Origin: Owenia fusiformis
Lineage: Eukaryota; Annelida; Polychaeta; Sabellida; Oweniidae
Assembly: GCA_903813345.2 (NCBI GenBank)
Contig: CAIIXF020000009.1
Span: 2,168,001 to 2,232,000 of the forward strand
Direction: 5' to 3'
Length of the DNA: 64,000 nucleotides
In this document: positions 33,851 through 61,535 of the stretch, piece by piece
How positions within the stretch are numbered: the first letter of the stretch is position 1
How the letters are laid out: each line of letters starts with the position of its first letter
Position numbers and translations under genes: made by a program
Notes under the pieces: generated by a model
What the model was told of the DNA's origin: nothing
The model's database searches: none
Seen by the model: only the letters and a program-made list of their open reading frames with translations

Positions 33851-36800
33851 TAATGAGCCACTGGATGATAGAGTTGCTCAACTACAGAGGCTAGAAGGAA
33901 GTATTTGAAATTATATAAAGAAGCGTTATCAACTCTTGAAAATAGTAGCTCAATTTAAATAAAATAAAGTAGAATATAAGTTTTTGGAGCTGAAAAAAAT
34001 CTTATTTTAGATTTTTTTATTTCTATTTCCCACTTAATACAACACAAAAACTACTTTTAGATTAACCTATTTAAACAAAAATGTCTGATACTGGGGTTTT
34101 AGTTAACCAGTCTTATAGGGGCGAGTTGACTTCAAAGGGGTCTGAGTTGAAATTTAGCTATTTTTACCTAATACGATTTGTTATATTTCTCTATGCAAGG
34201 GATATACTTAATCAAAAAATAGGAGTCAAAATCTTTTAACACTAAGACACTCTGACACTATGGTCTAATCAATAAGATTGTCATTTCATCAATTTTTACA
34301 ATCCCTTTACTCTGCCTTAATTTCCTGTTTCTTAAGAATCAGGATTGAGTTGATTAATATAAGAAAAAGGCCCCTTGGAGAAATAGTTTTGAGGATTCAG
34401 AAATTGAGAATAAGAGTGAACTTTGCTAGGAATGATATAAACAGAGAAATGCAGTTTGGAATTCTGTAAATTCTGATGCAAAAGGAAGTGAATCTTCATA
34501 ATTTTTGTAAGGAAAAAGCATGGAGAGGCATGATGGCTGAAAATTCAGTTGAGATTCAAAGGAGATTGCCAAAGGAGATATTCAATAACTCCCAGGTGCA
34601 ATAAATAAACATGCCTTTTCTGGAGGATGTCACCATTGATGTCAAATGACAAAAAGCATTAAATAAGATAACAAAAACCCTTTATCACTGTTCCACAGCT
34701 GGATGACTCTAACAGCAGTTAGCTTCATTCAAGATGGTTGCCGAGATTCTTTCGTTTTTGATAAACCTCCGATTTCAAAAATTTTTACATGAACACAGCA
34801 AGAAAAAGAAAACATCTAAGAGTACACCACCAGGGAAAACAAACCCAAACTATCCCAAATCATGATCTAATGTGAAGAAACCAAACAATGTACTTTTAGC
34901 ACAAATCAACTTTTTTTTACATTTGATAATATCTTCATGTTCTCCAAGTGAAAAACACTGATGACTAAAGAGATTACCCAATCAAAAACAGCAGGATAGT
35001 CACTTCTTTATTTGCCAAATTCCAGTCAAAATAGACAAAAGTGAGAAATATGAAGCTCATACACATGAAGTCCATACTCCAAATTATATAGAAATTGCCA
35101 TAATTGATACATGTCAGTCAAATATTTTTGAGAAAATTAGCAAAATGGACATTGATCCATGATTTTTGTTATCTTCAGATCATAGTCAATCTCAAGAGTA
35201 CTCAAGCCTTCATGAAGGAGATGGTAGTACTACAAGAAAAAAACATCTGTGTCTGCTATATAGCCTTCAATTAAAGTTGCACTGTGATTTAATATTTTTA
35301 CTAAAAACTCAGCGAAACAAGGAGGATTACATTTAAATGGACAATTATATATAAAGTGAAGAACTGACCTGTATGATAACCTCAATAATAGGTCCTCTGT
35401 GGTATTTTCTGAGATTAATGATGACAAATATGGAAAAACATAGTCGCATTTGATTTCTGGGCAACATGTGTTTCTACCTTTATAATCTCATAGATTAATG
35501 GTTGATAAAGTCATATTACAACAGACATGTTGTCTTAAATAAGGGCTATCAAGAAATCAATTTGGAAATGTTTTCTAATATTGGAGATTCGTGGTTACCC
35601 ATTGATAAATAGATTATTAATGGTATTGAGAATTCTAGTTGTTTCAACACCATTAATGGTTCTTTGACAGATAAATAAAGAGATTTGGTTGATATTACAG
35701 ATTTATTATCCTACTGTTTTTATTCAGACTAATCACATATGCCTCAGAATTCCATTTTTATAGTTTCAGAATAACTGCAGTATTTCCTGCCTCTGAAAAG
35801 ACCTTGGAAGAAGATATAACGATTATTCTATATAAGGTTCAGGATATTGGGATTATCCTGAGGTCAATATTATCTGCCCCAGGTCTGGAGGTATTTTTGG
35901 AAGATATCAACTAAATCTAAATCTGAATATTGTAAACCGACTATAGGATAAACTGTTTATCCTATGCTATTGTGTTCTTTACATTTATTCAGAGCTAATA
36001 TTTTCTTGAGTGTTTGTAAATTATTTTGTGATTGTCTTAAATTCTCATAGCTTCTTCATAAAAAGGAGCAAGGTTTTATAATTCTGTACTAGCATTTTCC
36101 CATTTTTGTTATTTCCAGAAAATATTTATTTTATCCAAATTTTATTTTGCCAAAATCAATTTTTCAATTTTTGATTTTCCAATTTTATATGCCCACTCAG
36201 CTGGGAGTAAATTACATCCTACCAACTGTTGTAAATCCTTTTCAAAAAGAATATACCAGCATGATAAATGTTTCAGTTCAAATGTAAATACCAGGTCTTC
36301 GTTGCTTTTTCAATGAAACAAATTCAAGATGAAGTTAATAGACAGATTGTCAATATGCCTCTCAATAATGCAATAAGAAAATCAATTTGTTCATTCTCAA
36401 GATTTTTTTAAATAAGTAATGATTACCATCTAATGACATTTTAAACCTCTTCTGTCATCTAACACACATTCAGTCCATATGAGATTACATCAACGGAAAA
36501 TCTAAGATATTACCCTTTCACACTATTTGATGCTTTCCCGGAAATCAAAAATCAATAGCGTCCATATATTTCCTTGCTTTGTGTTCAAAATAAATGTACC
36601 ACAAGAAATAAAGTATACAATTATTGAACATATAAACTTGCTGAATAATAATGAAATTAATGATTTGGCGTTGAGTTTGAAATTCTTTGAAAATCAGTAA
36701 TTTAAGTTAAGGAGTGAGTGCATTTTTACATAGGTCTATAGAGAACCCATACGGCCCAACGCATGTTCGGAAACCTGATGGTCGGAAAATACAAAGTTGT

Positions 36801-38019: not shown

Positions 38020-39560
38020 ACCCATAGGTTAGTCTGTTGCATAGCTACAATATTATATTATACCCATAGGTTAGTCTGTTGCATAGCTACAATATTATAT
38101 TATACCCATAGGTTAGTCTGTTGCATAGCTTCAATATTATATTATACCCAGTTGTCAGTCTGTTGCATAGCTACAATAATATATACCCAGTTGTTGCAAA
38201 GATAAAATAAAATACACCTAAAAATATACCAATGGGTTAGTCTGTTGCATAGCTACAATATTATATTATACCCATAGGTTAGTCTGTTACATAGCTACGA
38301 TATTATATTATACCCAGGTGTTAGTCTGTTGCATAGCTTAATATTATATTATACCCAGGTGTTAGTCTGTTGCATAGCTACAATAACATGTGCCCAGTTG
38401 TTGCAAAGATAAAATAAAATACACCTAAAAATATACCAATAGGTTAGTCTGTTGCATAGCTACAATATTATATTATACCCAGGTGTTAGTCTGTTGCATA
38501 GCTACAATATTAAATTATACCCAGTTGTTAGTCTGTTACATAGCTACAATATTATATTATACCTAGTTGTCAGTCTGTTGCATAGCTACAATATTATATT
38601 ATACCCAGGTGTTAGTCTGTTGCATAGCTACAATATTATATTATACCCAGGTGTTAGTCTGTTACATAGCTACAATATTATATTATACCTAGTTGTCAGT
38701 CTGTTGCATAGCTACAATATTAAATTATACCCAGGTGTTAGTCTGTTGCATAGCTACAATATTATATTATACCTAGTTGTCAGTCTGTTGCATAGCTACA
38801 ATATTAAATTATACCCAGGTGTTAGTCTGTTGCATAGCTACAATATTATATTATACCTAGTTGTCAGTCTGTTGCATAGCTACAATATTATATTATACCC
38901 AGGTGTTAGTCTGTTGCATAGCTACAATATTATATTATACCTAGTTGTCAGTCTGTTGCATAGCTACAATATTATATTATACCTAGTTGTCAGTCTGTTG
39001 CATAGCTACAATATTATATTATACCCAGTTGTTAGTCTGTTGCATAGCTACAATATTAATTTATACCCAGTTGTTAGTCTGTTGCATAGCTACAATATTA
39101 TATTATACCTAGTTGTCAGTCTGTTGCATAGCTACAATATTATATTATACCTAGTTGTCAGTCTGTTGCATAGCTACAATATTATATTATACCCAATTGT
39201 CAGTCTGTTGCATAGCTACAATATTATATTATACCCACTTGTCAGTCTGTTGCATAGCTACAATATTATATTGTACCCAGGTATTAGTCTGTTGCATAGC
39301 TACAATAACGTGAACCAAGTTGTTAGTTTGTTGCAAAGATATAATAAAATATACCTAGTTGTCAGTCTATTGCATAGCTGCAACAAAATATAACCAATGT
39401 AGAAAATTACAATTAAATATACCTCATCAGTCCATTGCAAAGCTACATAAAAATGTATTCAGTTGTTAGTATGTTGCAGATATCATGAAATATAGTCATC
39501 AGTCTATTATAAGCCACATGGAAATATAACAAATTGACAAAAAATATACTCAGTTGTCAG
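38020..39560 (+). repeat. 42-bp minisatellite, tgttgcatagctacaatatt
   Basis: More than thirty units of tctgttgcatagctacaata plus ttatattatacccaggtgttag. The spacing is 42 bases in the regular core (e.g. 38574, 38616). A larger ~210-230 bp block ending in ataaaataaaatacacctaa is duplicated (about 38195 and 38405). The edges beyond 39290 decay. Because 42 is a multiple of three, a 313-codon frame (38452-39393) stays open with no ATG start, giving a 14-residue repeat LLHSYNIILYPGVS. It is a by-product. Confidence 0.94.
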
Positions 39561-44570: not shown

Positions 44571-44732
44571 GATCACAGGTTTAATGATGAAGTTGACATC
44601 AAAACTGGGTACAAAACTCGCAGTATACTATGTATGCCAATCAAAGATGCCAATGGTGATGTCATCGGTGTCGCCCAAGCCATCAATAAAAACAGTCTTG
44701 TGGAGGAGCCATTTGATGAAAAGGATGAAAAG
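44571..44732 (+). CDS. Pde11: PDE11-like exon 1 of the window: second half of GAF-A
   Basis: The exon has 54 codons and is phase 0 at both ends. The acceptor is ...gtattttcag and the donor is AAG|gtatac. It begins [20 protein letters not shown] and continues with CMPI and [10 protein letters not shown]. The NK(X)nFX3DE motif typical of cyclic-nucleotide-binding GAF domains is complete: NK, then PFDEKDE. In family members this segment follows the NIxDAYQ loop, so an upstream exon ending at that point must exist; I could not find it in the preceding 44 kb. The exon sits in AT-rich intron sequence and is clearly richer in G+C than its flanks. GAF-A binds cGMP in PDE5 and PDE11 and acts as an allosteric module. 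Confidence 0.93.
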
Positions 44733-46141: not shown

Positions 46142-46231
46142 GTGTTTGGTTCGTACCTTGCATTCTGTGGTATAGGACTCAGGAATGCCCAGCTTTATGA
46201 GCGCTCTCAGTTAGAAAATAAACGAAACCAG
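46142..46231 (+). CDS. Pde11: PDE11-like exon 2: end of GAF-A and linker helix
   Basis: The exon has 30 codons and is phase 0 at both ends. The acceptor is gtttatttcag and the donor CAG|gtgaga is strong. The product reads [20 protein letters not shown] and then [10 protein letters not shown]. In PDE5/6/11 proteins this is the last helix of GAF-A and the start of the long helical linker (LHR1) that joins GAF-A to GAF-B in the dimer. The [13 protein letters not shown] block is almost invariant in the family. A family M repeat ends shortly upstream, and an ACAGT-type MITE begins 6 bases into the downstream intron, so this small exon is hemmed in by repeats on both sides. Confidence 0.94.
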
Positions 46232-49662: not shown

Positions 49663-49800
49663 GTATTGCTTGACTTGGCGCGTGTGATATTTGAGGAGCA
49701 AAGTAACGTCGCAAACCTCATCCACAAAATCATGATGCATACCCAGTCATTGTTGCAGTGTGAGAGGTGTCAAGTCCTATTAGTGGATGAGACATCAAAG
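49663..49800 (+). CDS. Pde11: PDE11-like exon 3: linker and first strand of GAF-B
   Basis: The exon has 46 codons and is phase 0 at both ends. The acceptor is tttttaattttcag and the donor is AAG|gtgagt, a near-perfect consensus. The product starts VLLDLARVIFEEQSNVANLI, continues HKIMMHTQSLLQ, and ends CERCQVLLVDETSK. VLLDLAxxIFEEQ is the family linker sequence, and CERCxVLLVDE is beta-strand 1 of GAF-B. The HKIM...CERC stretch resembles PDE11 more than PDE5. The exon ends exactly in the loop between beta1 and beta2 of GAF-B, which matters for the candidate cassette exon downstream. Confidence 0.94.
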
Positions 49801-51882: not shown

Positions 51883-51957
51883 AGCAATTCAAAATCATAC
51901 TCGAAAAGACGTCGAAGCAAAGAGGCATACTCCTATTTTCCGCAGCCTTTATCTCCG
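51883..51957 (+). CDS. Pde11: Candidate cassette exon: 25-residue basic insert in the GAF-B beta1-beta2 loop
   Basis: The exon has 25 codons and is phase 0 at both ends. It is bounded by a good polypyrimidine tract and acceptor (tttctttattttag) and a fair donor (CCG|gtataa). In-frame stops lie immediately outside both splice sites (TAG spans the acceptor; TAA follows the donor), so the open frame is exactly exon-sized. It encodes SNSKSYSKRRRSKEAYSYFP followed by QPLSP. The core KRRRSKE contains an RRxS motif of the kind phosphorylated by PKA or PKG, and also resembles a basic localisation signal. The segment is richer in CpG than its flanks. Recalled Drosophila PDE11 has no residues here, so the exon would be skippable. 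What is seen: splice signals and frame. Inferred: that it is used. It could be chance. Confidence 0.55.
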
Positions 51958-52102
51958 GTATAATATTTGCCATCTACCTTCATGATCCTATGTTCAAATT
52001 CTTTGTCAGCTAAATGTAAAAATAGCAAGTTGTGAAATCGAAGAAATATTGAAATACACAAGATAATGTCATATATTTCTAATTTTCTTGTGTTTCAATT
52101 AG

Positions 52103-53935: not shown

Positions 53936-54614
53936 TTCTGCATTTGCATATAACAGCAAATATGGGGAGGACCATTAAATCGTTTTTTGAAGACAGAGTG
54001 TAACTGCTTGATATTTCAACCTTCAGTGATAAATTGTAGCAATGGCCTATTTGCCCTGAGTTCAAATTACTCATTTTTGATCTACTTTTATTGATTATGG
54101 CATTTTGATCTATATTATTGATTATTGCAGTTAATTACATTTAATTCACTTGTTCAAAGAAATATTTCTTGTGAATCAAATTGTCCTACTTCAGTATATA
54201 ATGGTTATTGCTCTTTTTCTTTATTAAATCAAATCTTTTGATATATTGAGCTTCTTTTAATTCAGGCCTCCTAGACTTCCATTAACGCGATTATCAGTTC
54301 CCACATCCTGAACTTAAGCTCTCACAGCGCGAAGGAACATACAGTTTCGGTGTGAAAACTGATGGTTGCGTTTTCAATATTGTAAATGCATTTTTATTTT
54401 GCAATTTTTAAAAATATTTTTTACTTCTGTGCCATCTTCTATTTTTTGGCAGGTTTGGGTAATTGTGCACTCAATGTTGATTCACAGTAAAACATCTTCT
54501 ATTTTATCTTTTATCAGGCACAACATATTCGGGCACAAAACACATTCATCCAAACCTATTTCCCAATAAAGATTCAGGTTAACCAATAGGAATATTTAGC
54601 ACACCCAGGGAATA
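53936..54614. other. Intron, nothing recognised
   Basis: AT-rich without repeat or exon. Confidence 0.4.
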
Positions 54615-55960: not shown

Positions 55961-57600
55961 TGCCAATATTACCGCACTACAAACTGTAACATCGATGCAA
56001 CAACTGAATAAAAGTACTCATCTTCATATTACATTATAGAGTTACGTTGAAAACCCACAAACAACTGAGCATTTGACCAAAGAAGACACGTCGCTATTAT
56101 CTAGGTCAAGTTTAGTGGTTCGAAAGCAAATCTTACATACTCGTTTCCTAATTTTGTTGTTAATTGTATAATCTTTTATTGATTAAATCTGGTATACTGA
56201 CTATTAATTCAATGACAAAGAAGAAGAATTCCGATGGTGTCATTTTTTTATTTAGCTTGCGGGTGTAAAAACAAAATTGCGTAATTAATTTGATTTAGAA
56301 CTTTCGGGTCTCACAAATAGCTACACGAAATGCATCGTTGAAAAATATTGACCAATCAAATTTTGTCCTTTTTGAGTACATATATGCACCATATATGCGA
56401 ACGTTCTGATTCAAAGAGCGAACAGCGAAATGGAGAATTGTTCAAATGCTTTTTGTACATCACCATTGAATAATATGCAAGATATTGGCAAATATTTTGT
56501 GATTGTCTTAACATACGAGGGTTGTCTAAAATCTTGATGCTTTTGGACAGCCCTGGCCTGGTATGTCATGATTATCGTTGTGTGTGTTTGCGCTATGTCT
56601 TGCAATCGTTGTCATCTTCTGGAAGTGAACTGCTGTGAATGGTATGATCAAGTGATTTACATTGAAATGTGGGGAAATTAAGCAAGGAACATAGTAAACA
56701 GGCATGTTCCTAGAACATACTCTAAAATGTACATAAGAACCAGAAAGGGGAGGGGCAGTTTATTCATATTTTGAGCAATTGACTGATTTAAGTATGACAT
56801 ATCACTGTAGTTCACTCAACTGCTTAAAGGTGGCACTCACTAGCATACTGCATTATGGGATTGCTTATCGTAAAACTTTTCTCCTTTACAGGCAAATAAA
56901 GAAAATACACATAATTTAAAGAATTGCAAGTCTAAAATGGTGAATATATTAAATCTGGTGACTTTAATTCAACTTTCTCTTTTTGAATTTTTATTACTGT
57001 TGACCCTTTACCTTAATTTTTTAAAATTGATGACATTTTTCTTAATGTGTGTGGACTTGTACTAATTGTAGATTTTGATGCATTGTGACTAGGTTAAAGT
57101 TTCTTTTTTATTTTAACAATTTCAGCATTTGTCTGGAACTGGAATTTTTTCATAAAATGCTGGATTTTTTTCAATTTCAAAATGCATGCAATGGAGCTGG
57201 TTAGATAGCAGTTTAACACTTTGTGGCGTGTGTGAATTAGTAGAGCAGTTTTCTGGTATTGAAAGGGTTAACATTTTGGTGGCTGGGTATTTTTCAATTT
57301 CTGCATGCATAACTCTAACACTACACATAATTTTATACAAATAATGTTGTTTTCAAAAAATATTGATAACCAAAGACATTTATATAGATTTTTACCATTT
57401 TTGTAAATGAGTGCTTCACATTGAAAATTGCTATTCCATACATTAACTCATGTTGCTATAGAAACATCTTAATACTTTAGAAACGATTTGTTCCTTTTAG
57501 ACTGTAGTACTTCGGATGTATTAGAAAAATCAAGGCAAATGGAAAATGTTTTTTTCACCAGTGTTTTAAATTTCTCATTTTAGTGAAATAAAAGATGATA
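55961..57600. other. Intron, mostly anonymous, one partial family P copy
   Basis: Words of family P on the - strand occur at 56660-56735 (aattaagcaaggaacatagt, aaacaggcatg). Otherwise nothing recognised. Confidence 0.45.
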
Positions 57601-59066: not shown

Positions 59067-59137
59067 GGTGTTTTCTCCCAAGTTTATGATCTCCAAGCAA
59101 GTGATTTTGACAATGATGCATCATGTAATCGAGGAGC
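59067..59137 (+). CDS. Pde11: PDE11-like exon: GAF-B beta2 region
   Basis: The exon is 71 bases, entering in phase 0 and leaving after two bases of a codon. The acceptor is tttgatattttcag and the donor GC|gtaagt is perfect. It encodes GVFSQVYDLQASDFDNDASC and then NRG plus the first two bases of an Ala codon. This corresponds to the GSFSRVFDxEANDL block of invertebrate PDE11, which directly follows the VDExxK end of exon 3, showing that the two exons join with or without the cassette. The acidic DFDND stretch sits in the variable loop before the conserved FPINIG segment. Confidence 0.9.
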
Positions 59138-61471: not shown

Positions 61472-61535
61472 TTCTTCAGAGCCGAGGTTTCCTATAAACA
61501 TTGGAGTTACAGGCTATGTAGCTACAACAGGGGAG
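61472..61535 (+). CDS. Pde11: PDE11-like exon: GAF-B core, FPINIGVTGYVATTGE
   Basis: The exon is 64 bases. Its first base completes the Ala codon begun in the previous exon, and it leaves in phase 0. The acceptor is cttatttttcag and the donor is GAG|gtatgt. It encodes SSEPRFPINIGVTGYVATTG and a final E. The RFPINIGxTGxVATTGE motif is a hallmark of the GAF-B domain of PDE11-type enzymes in invertebrates and is the strongest single argument for PDE11 rather than PDE5 or PDE6. About 210 bases downstream in the intron lies a 21-bp near-perfect hairpin. Confidence 0.94.

Follow-up and report, generated by a model that had tools for sequence, protein, structure and literature searches.

A probable in-frame pseudo-exon in the intron that splits the GAF-B domain of a PDE5/PDE11-family gene of Owenia fusiformis

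The window, by which we mean the whole stretch of 64,000 nucleotides that was analysed (C9:2168001-2232000), bears on its + strand part of a gene of the PDE5/PDE11 family (Table 1). The gene encodes two N-terminal GAF domains: the first part of GAF-A matches the Pfam GAF family at cut-off (22.4 bits, and 24.9 bits in another search), and the best match of GAF-B among solved structures is PDE5A (E 3.6e-12). The PDEase_I catalytic domain (PF00233) was found over cut-off at C9:2253221 and C9:2255729, on the same strand downstream of the window, together with further catalytic pieces of the gene. Elsewhere in the window, a 316-codon open frame at 38443-39390 consists of minisatellite repeats of the VSLLHSYNIILYPG type and is probably not a gene.

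A preliminary description of the locus spoke of a PDE11-like enzyme. The assignment to the PDE5/PDE11 family stands, but the preference for PDE11 over PDE5 is less clear-cut, the scores against human PDE5A and PDE11A sequences being close. A fly Pde11 sequence is the best match in seven of the ten pieces compared from GAF-B to the end of the catalytic domain, and over GAF-B exons 2 and 3 it gives 24/45, where human PDE5A gives 8/17 and human PDE11A 9/21. The other three pieces do better with the human sequences; these are GAF-B exon 1, of which the fly stretch used covers only part, and the catalytic pieces c5 and c6.

Table 1. Exons of the host gene, the candidate segment and comparable intervals in the same intron (window positions unless another coordinate system is given)
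Feature	Position	Strand	Description
First coding exon found, start of GAF-A	L007:220-957 (C9:2153219-2153956), upstream of the window		Aligned with PDE5A query 16-246, E 9.5e-39
Exon, GAF-A	44571-44732	+	Ends ...EKDEK; phase 0-0
Exon, end of GAF-A and linker	46142-46231	+	Phase 0-0
GAF-B exon 1	49663-49800	+	VLLDLARVIFEEQ...CERCQVLLVDETSK; phase 0-0; donor AAG/gtgagt; aligned to PDE5A GAF-B
Candidate cassette exon	51883-51957	+	SNSKSYSKRRRSKEAYSYFPQPLSP (75 nt, 25 codons); most likely an in-frame pseudo-exon
Look-alike in-frame interval, host intron	54518-54577	+	AQHIRAQNTFIQTYFPIKIQ; acceptor 12.2 bits, donor 3.1 bits
Look-alike interval(s), host intron	56892-56957	+	56892-56939 or 56892-56957; acceptor 11.5 bits, donors 6.3 and 5.4 bits
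GAF-B exon 2	59067-59137	+	GVFSQVYDLQASDFDNDASCNRG plus two bases; phase-0 start
GAF-B exon 3	61472-61535	+	SSEPRFPINIGVTGYVATTGE

GAF-B is split by an AT-rich intron of 9,266 nt that is filled with minisatellites, and it is within this intron that a cassette exon had been proposed at 51883-51957. The coordinates, the length, the AG upstream, the GT downstream and the 25 open codons were all borne out: the segment is preceded by ttttag and followed by gtataa (...ttctttattttag/AGC ... CCG/gtataa), and in the claimed frame it translates to the peptide given in Table 1, which contains KRRRSKE. Stops do lie right outside it, as had been claimed, one being the acceptor's own TAG and the other falling within GTA TAA on the far side, and the neighbouring exons are indeed in phase 0, with a donor after 49800 and an acceptor before 59067. 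In form the segment fits a cassette exon, with GT-AG borders, a length that is a multiple of three, matching phases and no stop. That it is open between its splice sites is correct, but this openness is weak evidence, because about 23% of the 75-nt windows in the host intron are open in any given frame and the candidate itself is open in all three.

We also confirmed that the candidate is richer in CpG than the intron, with 5 per 75 nt compared to a mean of 0.80, a count that is reached by 1.4% of the 75-nt intron windows, which fall into five clusters of which the candidate is one. Its GC content is 0.43 compared to an intron mean of 0.32, with 7% of windows as high. The candidate together with its flanks (121 nt) has one match in the 498-Mb genome, which is itself, and none of the tandem repeats listed for the intron overlaps 51883-51957; an exon derived from a repeat is accordingly unsupported. 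Relatives of the peptide were sought across the genome, which returned only the candidate itself and speaks against a genuine cassette exon, and a Pfam search of the peptide matched no family.

The strength of the splice sites was scored with matrices built from 13 donors and 12 acceptors hand-read from the host gene and blended with generic frequencies; the gene's own sites were scored leave-one-out. The candidate acceptor, previously called good, scores 9.5 bits, which is average and inside the range of the gene's 12 acceptors (6.7-15.5 bits). The donor CCG/gtataa had been called fair, a judgement that does not hold: at 2.8 bits it is the lowest of the 14 donors compared, under all 13 of the gene (4.8-12.8 bits). 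One of the two sites thus lies inside the range of real sites of the gene and the other below it. The average acceptor, the length and the phases fit a genuine cassette exon, and the weakest donor argues against one. Against a decoy, weak donors are frequent in cassette exons, the host gene's GAF-A exon has a comparable donor core (gtatac), and real acceptors can score under the candidate's, as does that of GAF-B exon 1 in a paralogue on C5 (3.4 bits). An automatically read collection from PDE genes (40 donors, 35 acceptors) was too noisy to be usable; 12 of these donors and 24 of these acceptors score under the candidate, and many of the picks are not real sites because profile ends fall within exons.

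A different arrangement of splice sites was observed further along the same gene, downstream of the window, where 5.9 tandem copies (95%) of an 87-nt unit lie at L006:3470-3984 (C9:2255270-2255784). What is repeated is a splice acceptor with the opening portion of a catalytic exon, and the array presents six identical acceptors of 4.44 bits each, weaker than the 12 gene acceptors scored, each followed by the catalytic-exon start SMMMTACD. Because 87 nt make 29 codons and the units are without an in-frame stop, a reading frame entered at the first acceptor continues without a stop as far as the real donor after L006:4069. Judged from the sequence, the acceptor chosen would determine how many extra copies, from 0 to 5, of a 29-residue repeat the protein gains; the repeat bears TACD, which we take to be a metal-binding motif. 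This tandem acceptor array is a more striking lead than the candidate at 51883-51957.

Intervals comparable to the candidate were collected using both of its splice-site scores as thresholds, with lengths of 30-250 nt that are a multiple of three and open in frame, so that by construction a passing interval scores at least as high as the candidate at both ends. On the sense strand of the intron we found four passing intervals at three acceptors, namely the candidate, 54518-54577 and the pair starting at 56892, and zero on the antisense strand; passing acceptors alone number 11 on the sense strand versus 1 on the antisense strand. Across the whole window the sense strand has 8 intervals, of which three are true exons, one is the candidate and the remaining four use three other acceptors, and the antisense strand has 1. 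Apart from the true exons, one passing in-frame interval of the window, 36119-36283, lies outside the host intron. The gene-sense strands of loci L001-L005 yielded true exons, their variants and one further interval (L002:9175-9276), and their antisense strands yielded zero passing intervals.

Of 200 dinucleotide-shuffled versions of the intron, 41 contain one or more such intervals (mean 0.215), as do 24 of 100 local-block shuffles (mean 0.27); four intervals were reached in 0/200 and 0/100 shuffles, respectively. The excess over chance is marginal: a single passing interval is unremarkable, yet four exceed what shuffling yields. Two readings fit this. The sense strand of introns may have properties, lost on shuffling, that generate decoys, or splicing may use some of the intervals. 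As the four in the intron are never matched by shuffles and sense intervals outnumber antisense ones, some of the passing intervals may be real. For the candidate itself, the presence of neighbouring passing intervals counts against a genuine cassette exon.

Coding potential was evaluated with a Markov model for which kinase open frames totalling 32,802 nt, from 27 of 30 loci (L027, L030 and L037 being dropped), served as the training set. The candidate was compared with exon pieces taken from the host gene and from its C5 paralogue (66 for the Markov scores, 65 for the codon and amino-acid scores) and with 4,680 open frames of presumed intron, part of which (window 1-44560) may contain undetected exons. 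At order 3 it scores 9.5 bits per 75 nt, equal to or above 73% of the 66 exon pieces, a score reached by 0.6% of the intronic frames; the corresponding values are 56% and 3.1% at order 2 and 59% and 1.3% at order 4, and since pieces and frames overlap among themselves none of these percentages is an independent test. The order-3 score is reached by 2.2% of 1,671 GC-matched frames, and by 4.6% of the 152 of those with at least 4 CpG. This score is exon-like and favours a real exon. Among the look-alikes of the window, 54518-54577 is likewise exon-like with a Markov score of 8.5, and the others score below 0.

The claimed frame is hardly distinguished from its neighbours. A second frame on the same strand scores 9.47 at order 3. 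At orders 2, 3 and 4 the claimed frame leads by 0.76, 0.03 and 2.39 bits, where the median leads of the exon pieces are 10.7, 10.2 and 9.1 bits and where 9.1%, 9.1% and 10.6% of exon pieces have a lead as low. For synonymous codons the candidate scores -1.51, which places it at the 17th percentile of the 65 exon pieces (median 0.61), on a measure that discriminates poorly in that the intron median of 2.21 is above that of exons. The amino-acid score is -0.37, at the 9th percentile of exon pieces (median 1.72), and 27% of intronic frames reach it. The signal of the candidate therefore looks like composition rather than codons of the claimed frame, and neither the missing frame preference nor the codon and amino-acid scores lend support to a cassette exon.

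The insertion point had been placed at the junction between VDETSK and GVFSQVYDL, and this position proved correct: the two exons joined directly align without gap to PDE5A GAF-B (VDEDCSDSFSSVF). The statement that Drosophila PDE11 has no insert here agrees with a gap-free alignment to the fly Pde11 sequence. At the same site PDE5A GAF-A is 3 residues longer, and a paralogue on C1, which reads RDQNSE/KVVFSKVFDL, is 1 residue longer with its better-scoring acceptor and none longer with the other acceptor. Some change in length is therefore tolerated at this turn, such that an insert of 25 residues is not absurd, a point in favour of the cassette exon.

A search with GAF-B gave hits to relatives at E 4.8e-12 on C5 and at E 2.2e-9 on C1, with weaker rows for the host gene's own GAF-A stretch and for places on C2 and C5. 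The C1 paralogue (L003, C1:49235000-49244900, minus strand) has an intron at the same position and in phase 0, and is nearer to human PDE11A (30/39 in GAF-B exon 1). Scanning the whole of this 6.5-kb intron gave zero intervals passing the thresholds; this absence is weak evidence because GAF-B exon 1 of the C1 paralogue itself fails the acceptor threshold (8.0 bits), as does that of the C5 paralogue. For C5, about 13 kb after GAF-B exon 1 were scanned, and the intron may be only partly covered because the next GAF-B exon was not found in this stretch. The scan has one passing interval, L002:9175-9276 (C5:7982575-7982676), about 13 kb after GAF-B exon 1, with an acceptor of 10.4 and a donor of 6.9 bits, which may be an exon or a further look-alike. 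The peptide it encodes is unlike that of the candidate, the alignment score being reached by 806 of 1000 shuffles. With no passing interval on C1 and a single dissimilar one on C5, an exon common to the paralogues is unsupported.

The phosphorylation site proposed for the insert rests on KRRRSKE, which is present in the candidate peptide as described; judged by its sequence, RRRS is a putative PKA/PKG site that fits the consensus R-R-x-S/T of these kinases. As background we sampled 3,462 open 25-codon frames of the window on both strands, excluding the surroundings of the candidate and keeping true exons. An RR/RK/KR-x-S/T motif occurs in 87 of them, the looser [RK][RK]x[ST] in 124, and a run of at least three basic residues before S/T in just 13, the last being a count that favours a genuine cassette exon. 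The motif is thus uncommon, but it was spotted after the fact. In addition, the first exon of the host gene has TPVRKISAQEFERS, aligned to PDE5A TPTRKISASEFDRP with its RKIS motif, which presumably corresponds to PDE5A Ser102, in the known phosphosite region of PDE5. As this RKIS-like motif is already present, kinase feedback can be accounted for without a further site. PDE5A and PDE11A4 have N-terminal PKA/PKG sites and undergo feedback phosphorylation by cyclic-nucleotide-dependent kinases, and the RKIS-aligned motif of the host gene resembles this arrangement. Those sites lie N-terminal to GAF-A, whereas the candidate site would be optional and inside GAF-B.

Human PDE11A offers the closest comparison for the splicing itself. 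Transcript variants PDE11A1-A4 alter the regulatory half of the enzyme, with a partial GAF-B in PDE11A1, according to the accessible portions of PMC13095499, and in those of PMC13095499 and PMC10146088 the variants differ at their amino termini. The candidate concerns the same enzyme family and the same regulatory half, but the PDE11A differences given there are N-terminal. A cassette inside GAF-B is not described in the accessible portions of either source, and among the matches listed for literature on PDE11 or GAF-B splice forms, as far as their text is accessible, there was no GAF-B cassette.

Collectively, these results make it probable that 51883-51957 is a chance in-frame pseudo-exon, a splice decoy within the intron that splits GAF-B; the strengths given to this and to the other readings are weighed judgements rather than computed posteriors. 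A usable-looking acceptor would here happen to be followed, 75 nt on and with no intervening stop, by a weak GT site. The spliceosome would normally join 49800 straight to 59067, giving ...VDETSK-GVFSQVYDL..., uninterrupted as in PDE5A GAF-B, and 51883-51957 would be skipped in all or nearly all mRNA. The testable evidence leans against the proposed cassette exon with a switchable phosphosite because the donor is the weakest compared, the intron holds look-alikes, the claimed frame is not preferred, no relative of the peptide was found in the genome and the first exon already has an RKIS-like motif.

We consider it unlikely, in spite of the exon-like Markov score, that the segment is a genuine cassette exon of some tissue or stage, adding 25 residues with KRRRS in the turn between two GAF-B strands. 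Such an exon might, with similarly doubtful standing, produce a longer exposed turn with a PKA/PKG site or a basic patch, at a position given by alignment, and it is a tentative suggestion that the insert would tune dimerisation or localisation and not block the catalytic site. Far less probable is the more specific proposal of a lineage-specific cassette through which a PDE11-type enzyme would gain, in its GAF-B turn, a second and internal PKA/PKG site beside the N-terminal RKIS-like site. Just as improbable is use of the acceptor in another transcript whose product would be truncated or degraded, either as an alternative terminal exon or as a poison exon paired with some other donor. Of the two sites the acceptor is the stronger, and another weak donor lies at 52015 (AAT/GTAAAA, 2.8 bits), which gives an interval of 133 nt that is closed in frame 0, but PDE11A variants differ at their N termini in the accessible portions of PMC13095499 and PMC10146088.

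The pseudo-exon reading carries a caution for such predictions, as an intron whose shuffles yield about 0.2 in-frame intervals holds four in reality, and the kinase motif so added is too common to carry the case. If the exon were real, a splice switch would put a kinase site within a GAF domain, whereas the PDE11A variants described in the accessible literature differ at their N termini. If the lineage-specific proposal were true, splicing would decide whether cyclic-nucleotide kinases reach the dimerisation and regulatory domain of the enzyme, beyond its N-terminal site.
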